64,000 nt of DNA from Lachnospiraceae bacterium (GTDB lineage Bacteria; Bacillota; Clostridia; Lachnospirales; Lachnospiraceae): the NCBI GenBank assembly GCA_910574195.1, contig CAJTBF010000007.1, positions 1 through 64,000 on the forward strand, written 5' to 3'. Below are positions 11,232 through 13,401 of the stretch, one piece after another. The position numbers and the translations under genes are program-made. The notes under the pieces were generated by a model. That model did no database searches, had not been told where the DNA came from, and was given only the letters and a program-made list of their open reading frames with translations. Positions within the stretch are counted from its first letter, which is position 1; the number at the start of each line of letters is the position of its first letter.

Positions 11232-11981
11232 TTATTTATAATTTACGATCTTACCAAAATCTTCTTTCAAAGAAGCGCCTCCTACCAGGCCGCCATCGAT
11301 ATCCTCCTGTGCAAACAGGTCCGCTGCCGTCGCCGCATTGACGGAGCCGCCGTACTGAATCCGGATCGCTGCTGCCGTCGCATCGTCATACACTTCTGCA
11401 ATACAGGCACGAATTCCTGCACATACTTCCTGCGCCTGCTCTGTGGTCGCAGTCTTTCCTGTTCCGATTGCCCAGATCGGCTCATATGCGATCACTGCCG
11501 TCTTTGCCTGTTCTGCCGTCACATTCTGGAAACCAACCTTTACCTGCTGCCGGATGAAATCCATAGTCACACCCTGCTCTCTCTGCTCCAGACTTTCGCC
11601 GCAGCACATAATCGGCGTAATTCCATGCTCAAATGCTTTCAGGACTTTTTTGTTCACGTCTTCATTCGTCTCTCCAAAGTATTCTCTTCTTTCCGAATGT
11701 CCGAGAACGACATACTTCACACCGGCATCCACCAGCATATTCGGGGAGATCTCTCCTGTATACGCGCCGCTCTCTTCAAAATACATATTCTCAGCGCCGA
11801 CCTGAATGTTAGATCCCCTGGCAGCCTCTACCACCGGAACAATGTCAATTGCCGGTACGCAGAACACTACGTCCACTTCCTCGTTCGCTACCAACGGTTT
11901 TAACAGCTCAACCAAAGCAACCGCTTCGCTCGGAGTCTTATTCATCTTCCAGTTTCCCGCAATAATCTTTTTCCTTGCCAT
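11232..11981 (-). CDS. tpiA: Triosephosphate isomerase
   Basis: Interconverts dihydroxyacetone phosphate and glyceraldehyde 3-phosphate. It is 249 residues, the usual TIM-barrel length. [10 protein letters not shown] at the N terminus gives the Asn and Lys of the active site, LGHSERR the electrophilic His, and [11 protein letters not shown] the catalytic Glu plus the mobile loop. IQYGGSVN and GGLVGGASL bind phosphate. I chose the ATG at 11981 because GGAGG lies 8 nt upstream; earlier in-frame ATGs overlap that site. It is the last gene of gap-pgk-tpiA. The 139-nt gap after pgk holds two structured elements. Confidence 0.96.
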
Positions 11982-12045
11982 ATCCATGGCCTCCTTCATT
12001 TATTTTTTCCTTTATTTCATTTGCTAAATTAGGGATGTTCTCCTT

Positions 12046-12117
12046 GCTAGCTTCGATGATACCTCAGCAAGCGCGGTGAACTAAGTAAACGCTAGGCTCG
12101 ATAATACCTCGCCAAGC
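12046..12117 (-). repeat. Two copies of a covarying hairpin between pgk and tpiA
   Basis: Two 27-nt direct repeats (12091-12117 and 12046-12072) match at 22 of 27 positions. On the transcript each folds as GCT, a T.T mismatch, 3 bp, tandem G.A/A.G pairs, 2 bp and a 5-nt loop. Two stem pairs differ between the copies by compensatory changes (G-C to C-G and C-G to T-A), which supports an RNA structure. The first copy starts 4 nt past the pgk stop codon. I know no named motif that matches. Confidence 0.7.
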
Positions 12118-12120
12118 TTT

Positions 12121-13314
12121 TTACTTATCGTTGGCGGCAGCTACGCCGGGGAGTTCTTTTCCTTCCAGGAATTCCAGGGATGCGCCGCCGCCGGTGGAGA
12201 TATGCGTCATCTTATCGCCATATCCCAACTGGTTTACTGCCGCTGCGGAATCGCCGCCGCCGATGATCGTTACGGCATCCGTATCTGCCAGCGCTTTTGC
12301 AACCGCCTCTGTTCCCGCTGCAAATTTCGGCATCTCAAACGCGCCCATCGGTCCGTTCCATACCACGGTCTTTGCCTCTTTCACCGCATCCGCATAGATC
12401 TTTGCCGTCTCCGGTCCGATATCCAGTCCCTGCCAGTCGTCTGGAATCTCTCCGTTTCCGACTACTTTCGAATTTGCATCGTTGGAGAAATCGTCCGCAA
12501 TCACATTGTCTACCGGAAGAAGCAGCTTCACGCCTTTCTCCTGCGCCTTTTTGATCATATCCAGCGCGTACTGGCAGTAATCCTCTTCCAGAAGGGATTT
12601 TCCTACGTTTCCGCCCTGTGCCTTGCTGAATGTATAGGACATTCCACCGCCGATAATTAAGGTATCTACTTTTTCCAGCAGATTTTCAATTACGGAAATC
12701 TTACTGGATACTTTTGCGCCGCCCAGAATTGCCACAAACGGTCTCTCCGGATTATTTACCGCATTGCCAAGGAAGTCAATCTCTTTCTGCATCAGGTAAC
12801 CTACCACTGCAGTGTCTACAAACTGTGTCACGCCCACATTGGAACAATGTGCTCTGTGCGCGGTTCCAAACGCGTCGTTTACAAAAACTTCACACAGGGA
12901 AGCTAATTCTTTACTAAACGCCTCTCCGTTCTTTGTCTCTTCCGCTCTGTAACGGGTATTTTCCAGAAGAATGATCTCTCCGTCCTGCATAGCCTCTACC
13001 GCTGCCTTTGCATTCGGTCCGACTACTTCCGGATCCGCTGCGAATTTCACTTCCTGCCCAAGCAGTTCCGACAGTCTGACCGCCACCGGAGCCAAGGACA
13101 ACTCCGGCTTCGGCTCTCCCTTCGGCTTTCCAAGATGAGAACAAAGAATCACTTTTCCGCCGTCTGCAACCAGTTTCTTAATCGTCGGAAGCGCCGCGAC
13201 CAGACGATTCTCGTCCGTGATCTTTCCCTCAATCAACGGTACGTTGAAGTCGCATCTCACCAGAACTTTTTTTCCTTTTACATTGATATCGTCTACTGAT
13301 TTTTTATTAAGCAT
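12121..13314 (-). CDS. pgk: Phosphoglycerate kinase
   Basis: Transfers phosphate from 1,3-bisphosphoglycerate to ADP, the first ATP-forming step of glycolysis. It is 397 residues from the chosen ATG at 13314, which follows GGTGGAGG by 7 nt and gives the normal N terminus MLNKKSVDD. Upstream in-frame codons run into the intercistronic hairpin and are rejected. [11 protein letters not shown] and [10 protein letters not shown] are the substrate-binding segments, and the nucleotide site ends with [15 protein letters not shown] (about 350-364). It is the middle gene of gap-pgk-tpiA. Confidence 0.96.
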
Positions 13315-13401
13315 ATACTTGCCTCCACCATTCATTTCTTTCTCATACGGAACCCATTCCGGTTCCGATTCTCTTGCTGCAAGAATTCTTCCAGGATAAA
13401 A

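Follow-up and report, generated by a model that had tools for sequence, protein, structure and literature searches.

A REP-like family of structured repeats in Lachnospiraceae with a predicted helix over the pgk stop codon

Introduction

What kind of element separates pgk from tpiA in this Lachnospiraceae genome, and is it read as RNA or carried as a DNA repeat? A first-pass annotation of the window, that is, of the whole 64,000-nt stretch of DNA analysed here, described two 27-nt direct repeats between these genes, 18 nt apart, and took them for RNA hairpins of the glycolytic operon with compensatory changes and no named counterpart. Both cores were found where they had been placed, on the minus strand, and the element turned out to be larger and far more widespread than described. 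We concluded that it is a new REP-like family of structured repeats.

Two hairpins and their outer helices

On the minus strand pgk is followed by tpiA, and both genes were confirmed by Pfam (Table 1). The first core hairpin began at the fourth base after the pgk stop codon, as annotated, with three bases intervening. The two hairpins shared one shape, namely 3 bp, a U.U mismatch, 3 bp, tandem GA/GA and a short apical stem-loop. The mismatches were thus as first described, but ViennaRNA closed the apex with 3 bp and left a loop of 3 nt, where 2 bp and 5 nt had been described. The two stem pairs that had been reported to differ on both sides between the copies (G-C/C-G and C-G/T-A) were real. 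The extent given for the element was too small, since outer helices around both cores had been missed.

Table 1. Features of the pgk-tpiA locus in the window
Feature	Position	Strand	Basis or remark
pgk (PF00162)	12121..13326	-	Pfam; start codon not fixed
tpiA (PF00121)	11232..11981	-	Pfam; counted from MARKK start
pgk stop codon TAA	12123-12121	-	within hairpin 1 outer helix
Core hairpin 1, GCTTGGCGAGGTATTATCGAGCCTAGC	12117-12091	-	model (R1) match, 36.1 bits
Core hairpin 2, GCTTGCTGAGGTATCATCGAAGCTAGC	12072-12046	-	model (R1) match, 31 bits
Hairpin 1 outer helix, 5' arm TAAGTAAA	12120..12127	-	last base of Asp codon, Lys AAG, stop TAA, one further base
Hairpin 1 outer helix, 3' arm TTTACTTA	12082..12089	-	fold and between-species alignment
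Hairpin 2 outer helix, 5' side (GTTC, A, CC, then GC)	12073..12081	-	fold; adjoins preceding arm directly
Hairpin 2 outer helix, 3' side (AA, then GG, A, GAAC)	12037..12045	-	fold

When 100 nt from GAUAAGUAA were folded, exactly these two hairpins were obtained (minimum free energy -32.3 kcal/mol). Each was extended by an outer helix, of 8 bp in hairpin 1 and of 4+2 bp in hairpin 2, and the extended hairpins adjoined directly. Shuffled sequences had a mean of -23.4 (sd 3.3), corresponding to a z of -2.69, and 4 of 200 shuffles were equally good. A longer stretch of 136 nt reached a z of only -1.44 (19 of 200 shuffles equally good), and folding energy alone was therefore weak support. A strict scan in which the CTT and TAG letters were also fixed returned the two hairpins as the sole cores of the window, and 60 first-order Markov resamples of the window gave a mean of 0.02 cores and no pair. 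Together with reversed and antisense motif controls, the resamples ruled out a chance origin of the pair. A looser scan without the CTT and TAG letters gave 10 matches in the window; since eight of these were unrelated, the hairpin shape alone would not stand out. A pairing between a GGUAU loop and an AUACC tail was also considered, judged by eye and dropped as inconsistent.

Relatives of the element at pgk-tpiA

Relatives were taken from one scan of species genomes as the best 80 of 580 pgk loci. The 80 spacers cut out comprised 79 loci and the window; the spacer of L108 could not be resolved, and this locus was scored as lacking the element in the tree, codon and nearest-pair counts below. 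The core was present in 25 of the 80 spacers, with 47 elements in all and one to three in each. Their apices were of two kinds: some had a short loop as in the window, others a longer hairpin in which a further stem covaried.

The first scan of the spacers required at least five of the six core pairs, and a motif made of the constant letters only, free of any pairing requirement, was applied to the same 80 spacers. All three inner pairs were Watson-Crick in 35 of its 47 distinct sense matches, whereas the antisense motif had no match and the reversed motif one, with two pairs. In the rpsH-rplF spacers 9 of 15 matches had all three pairs. Over all loci fetched, most of them by the covariance model, three pairs were present in 75 of the 111 short matches and in 102 of the 266 long ones, compared with 1 of 35 and 1 of 120 for the reversed control. 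Where a pair was odd, G.U prevailed over A.C by 30 to 15 (3 to 4 in the control).

Covariation was scored in 36 of the 44 distinct cores, eight mostly imperfect ones having been omitted. The 13 proposed pairs had 80 double-changed cells, compared with 27.1 in shuffles; every covariation measure dropped when the partner was slid by one to three columns, and two measures were weaker (9/500 and 71/500). The rows are related, so that the shuffle tests overstate significance, and the 91.2% pairing of this set arose partly by construction, owing to the omissions and to the five-of-six-pairs scan. Across all 44 distinct cores, 253 of 264 core pairs were paired. The first-pass annotation had seen in the compensatory changes an argument for selection on RNA structure. 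Selection on a folded nucleic acid was borne out by the contrast with the motif controls, but covariation alone cannot separate RNA from single-stranded DNA.

On a pgk tree, the presence and absence of the element required 17 changes, 13 of them on well-supported branches. Shuffled labels needed about 22, so presence was somewhat clustered. Given these changes and its presence in 25 of 80 spacers only, the element was dispensable at pgk. The remaining sequence in L037 and L045 resembled a scar of the element, and in L085 and L086 the pgk stop codon ran straight into the next ribosome-binding region.

Pairing with the end of the upstream gene

The predicted outer helix of hairpin 1 enclosed the last codons and the stop codon of pgk, UAAGUAAA pairing with UUUACUUA. 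Twenty pgk loci, those in which the stop codon and a core were at most 16 nt apart, were tested for such a helix, and an outer helix of 8-9 bp between the pgk end and the linker was present in 11 of them, the window included. Three variants were distinguished (TAAGTAAA/TTTACTTA, TAGGTAAA/TTTACCTA and CAGGTAAA/TTTACCTG). Namely, GAT AAG TAA A paired with TTTACTTA in the window and seven relatives (one pair longer in L033), GAT AGG TAA A with TTTACCTA in L036 and L038, and GAC AGG TAA A with TTTACCTG in L047. A shorter pairing of TAAGT with ACTTA, covering one stop base, was found in L056, L077, L079, L084 and L102, and no stop helix of the pgk type was found in L068, L081, L099 and L104. Two pairs of the helix were changed on both sides between species. 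Ten of the eleven helix loci were aligned; as these were chosen for having the helix, their full pairing is a matter of choice and the double changes alone count. Both fell in related Dorea-like loci and represented about two events. Taken as a prediction, the stop-codon helix at pgk was well supported.

Similar pairing was found beyond pgk. Among 58 distinct stop-proximal elements, 30 had a predicted helix of 5 bp or more that took in two or more stop bases, where 12.7 were expected. Many of these had TGACC paired with GGTCG; TAACC/GGTTG was found in L152 and GGTAAC/GTTGTT in L262. A counter-example was L260, in which the stop codon TGA lay opposite GGCCG, not GGTCG. In the set of 196 distinct cores, 84 were enclosed by 6 bp or more of outer helix, compared with 17.4 expected with exchanged flanks, and the outer helices of at least 5 bp were of 61 different sequences.

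The synonymous codons at the end of pgk tracked the presence of the element. Among Lys-ending loci, 21 of the 22 with the element used AAG as the last Lys codon, the codon usage of the individual genes predicting 10.3; of the 48 without the element, 18 used AAG (23.6 expected), several of these AAG loci containing remnants of the element. The Asp codon before the last codon behaved in the same way, GAT being used in 24 of 25 loci with the element (15.4 expected) and in 31 of 53 without it (34.4 expected). We also matched 25 loci with the element greedily to their nearest loci without it, in pairs that are not strictly independent and reach down to an identity of 0.73. For Lys, 13 pairs had AAG with and AAA without the element, none was reversed and 12 were uninformative; for GAT, eight pairs had the expected direction and one was reversed. 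Pairing in the helix was not the whole reason for AAG, because L068, L081 and L099 used this codon without a predicted helix. L104 had neither.

A dispersed family in Lachnospiraceae

A covariance model was built from the pgk-tpiA cores. With 150 of 834-866 candidates scored, it matched the window's own genome 11 times at E up to 0.1. Two of these matches were the pgk-tpiA hairpins, three formed a tandem array in the rpsH-rplF spacer and six lay elsewhere. The element was thus not confined to the pgk-tpiA spacer or the glycolytic operon, and these genome-wide copies ruled out a pgk-specific regulator. All 12 genomes of the genus had matches at the same threshold, from 3 to 57 per genome, and 21 of 40 genomes of the family (one per genus, own included) had matches at E up to 0.001. 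Further copies with covariation in related genomes, which the annotation had named as a check, therefore exist. In a draw from the class, 2 of 41 genomes matched, both of the same family, and none of the 39 genomes of other families did at E up to 0.001; this search used stricter filters, yet it recovered all 9 own-genome matches. A draw from the phylum gave 2 of 119 genomes, the own genome and G189, and says little, as its sensitivity was low: with stricter filters and fewer candidates scored, it recovered one own match, compared with 9 in the family search at the same threshold. The exact motif GAGGTATNATCGA matched in 28 of 150 family genomes and its reversed control matched in many too, which made this search uninformative. 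The family as such was well supported.

Different genomes had their own subfamilies, with differing flanks around a constant core. In G154 a 59-nt unit was identical at 4 of 20 loci fetched, which pointed to recent spread of copies in this genome. Six copies of the own genome had long complementary ends, and the window copy lacked such ends.

Several variants are worth describing in their own right. In the own genome, L114, L118, L119, L120, L190 and L191 were copies of a MITE-like repeat of about 150 nt with long complementary ends of the CAGGACAGAAATACTTGCCC type, which differed in step between copies; each copy carried one core hairpin within a nested AAAAAACGT/ACGTTTTTT stem. Between rpsH and rplF (L113, G000 C5:155526-155816), three tandem units of about 103 bp had two hairpins each. 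A subfamily of G038 (L174-L176, L179, L180, L182, L183 and L192) had a TATAAT-like sequence just before hairpin 1 and lay mostly about 40-70 nt before a gene, as if a transcript could begin at the hairpin. In most of L216-L235 of G030, a longer element surrounded one core, and several of these were located between convergent genes with terminator-like ends, judged by eye. The match in G189, of another family of the phylum, was a single strong one (L140, C17:23908-23949) and may reflect transfer or contamination.

Placement relative to genes

Placement was examined at loci from 11 genomes, which were best matches rather than a random sample and to which G154 contributed many. There were 97 arrays between genes and 9 inside called ORFs, and among the latter some appeared to be chance matches or false ORFs. 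The preceding gene had sense orientation relative to the array in 64 cases and antisense orientation in 32. Of the 64 sense arrays, 22 had a core starting 2-10 nt behind the stop codon, compared with 0 of 39 on the antisense side; stop-proximal placement thus held for part of the family only. Recurrent sites were pgk-tpiA, rpsH-rplF, rpsM-rpsK, rpsL-rpsG, rplK-rplA and grpE-dnaK, the last named by eye. At rpsH-rplF the strict scan found the element in 9 of 30 spacers, and a tenth, L302, had an antisense pair. By eye, further G154 sites lay behind genes for ordinary metabolism or transport, so the genes hosting the element need not be highly expressed. Other copies are untranslated: in L255 (G035) the genes of an rRNA operon were ordered 16S, 5S, tRNA, tRNA, 23S, with a two-hairpin element separating the two tRNA genes, and in L238 a copy followed a 23S-like end (by eye). 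The MITE-like copies of the own genome lay in both orientations, and one G038 subfamily was mostly antisense (by eye).

Comparison with known elements

That no named element has this shape held as far as Rfam 15 goes. No match covered the element in the window at gathering level, in 5 loci at E up to 1, or in 10 loci (among them L115, the locus of the window's element) at E up to 0.5; no known RNA family of Rfam 15 was therefore a candidate. The sole Rfam match in the window at gathering level was a tRNA gene at 2865-2947 on the minus strand. No description of the element was found by title or abstract opening in mainly non-subscription literature. The main text of a human microbiome survey (PMC8040213) contained no word beginning with Lachno, Blautia or Dorea.

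The closest likeness was to REP and BIME sequences. The RepRanger paper (PMC12306157) describes these in E. coli and other bacteria as short imperfect palindromes between genes, present in many copies, single or arrayed, and in part located just behind stop codons. Our element is likewise a short imperfect extragenic palindrome with many copies per genome, and hairpin 1 of the window, 3 nt behind the pgk stop, lay within the 15 nt behind a sense stop codon that we took as REP-like placement. However, it differs in sequence and shape, its outer helix can take in the stop codon itself, and it has no firm link to a REP-associated transposase. The foot of REP hairpins carries a conserved GTAG/GGAG tetranucleotide; by eye, a foot of this type was not a constant feature of the element flanks. 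Nor was a REP-associated tyrosine transposase regularly flanked by copies, PF01797 being absent from 3 of the 12 copy-bearing genomes. Because these two defining features of REP failed, we class the element among dispersed structured repeats, as a new form of these, and do not call it a REP.

Non-autonomous elements derived from IS200/IS605 consist of two imperfect hairpins in direct orientation. They resemble our element in this pairing and differ from it in that the Y1 transposase is missing from the same three genomes. In PMC3049150, BOX, RUP and SPRITE of Streptococcus pneumoniae appear as small dispersed repeats with extensive secondary structure, co-transcribed and judged parasitic; the likeness is one of description, and no relation is known. 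A motif survey of 50 genomes (PMC11109978, in part) lists mobile/repeat sequence candidates (MRSC) as multi-copy and covarying, RNA or DNA form undecided. MRSC-65-2, the sole such motif compared, differs from our element in being a single long stem with a UYCCGG repeat.

Discussion

The reading that we prefer, with a probability of roughly 45%, is a REP-like dispersed repeat specific to Lachnospiraceae that works as RNA over the stop codon at pgk-tpiA. Its defining unit would be the core hairpin with the U.U mismatch and tandem G.A/A.G pairs, often paired and with separate outer helices. Hairpin 1 would close over the last pgk codons and the stop codon, with hairpin 2 directly behind. A terminating ribosome would then have to open the outer helix of hairpin 1, which would refold once the ribosome leaves. 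The twin hairpin might slow termination on the upstream gene, as has been reported for stop-proximal REPs in E. coli, or it might protect the upstream mRNA against decay from the 3' end and set the two genes apart. Judging from sequence, the cell probably reads the repeat as RNA, either when translation terminates or during mRNA decay. The sense bias, the stop-codon helix, the codon coupling and the excess of G.U over A.C all point to RNA. Several observations count against this explanation, among them the untranslated copies of L255 and L238, the antisense pair of L302, the dispensability of the element at pgk, the use of AAG without a predicted helix in L068, L081 and L099, the counter-example of L260 and the one reversed Asp pair.

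Other features point to an element acting at the DNA level: the multi-copy spread, the tandem units, the MITE-like copies in both orientations and the mostly antisense G038 subfamily. Antisense subfamilies argue against a role confined to RNA. A selfish miniature DNA element of the REP/MITE kind, moved by an enzyme that reads single-stranded hairpins, would have the core as its recognition hairpin, and its place behind stop codons would be a tolerated insertion. We regard this as a serious but somewhat less probable alternative. It fits the genome-specific subfamilies, the identical unit in G154, the paired hairpins in one direction and the patchy presence at pgk-tpiA, but pairing with synonymous pgk codons or with stop codons would not be expected from it. 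G038 has three Y1 transposase loci, two of them within about 2 kb of copies; against this, the Y1 family was absent from G002, G039 and G013, and model matches (E up to 0.001) were found in 2 of 23 Y1 loci with 1.5-kb flanks, so that Y1 as the mover was not supported. A mobile repeat may also be read as RNA, and both may be true.

The matched arms could in principle have been made by mutation and not selection. In template-switch repair of imperfect palindromes, one arm is rewritten from the other; here such repair would have copied the pgk end into the arm and fixed AAG and GAT. This would jointly explain the covariation, the codon coupling and the varying apical stems. We consider it improbable, because it should also have erased the U.U and tandem G.A mismatches, which persist in paired stems with many flanks, although the scans require most of these letters and elements that had lost them go uncounted. 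An intrinsic terminator or attenuator, suggested by hairpins between two genes of one operon, is very improbable: a T-run is missing after either hairpin, and a consensus terminator scan of the minus strand at 11900-12200 gave no terminator-like site.

A stronger form of the RNA reading would be a device used throughout the family, folding over stop codons with an outer helix matched to the end of the preceding gene. Its folded state would report terminating ribosomes, and a protein or nuclease would read the U.U/tandem-G.A core and thereby adjust termination or mRNA decay in operons for ribosomal proteins, glycolysis and other functions. This seems unlikely to us. For the repeat as such, we infer both function and spread.

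Small structured repeats have been studied best in enterobacteria, pseudomonads and the pneumococcus. A repeat that conserves a non-canonical core of its own, that Rfam does not contain and that recurs in operons for ribosomal proteins and glycolysis across a major lineage of gut bacteria would add a new subject to this field. It is unusual for a downstream element to be coupled to upstream synonymous codons, and through this coupling an action of such repeats on RNA as translation terminates can be tested cheaply and directly.
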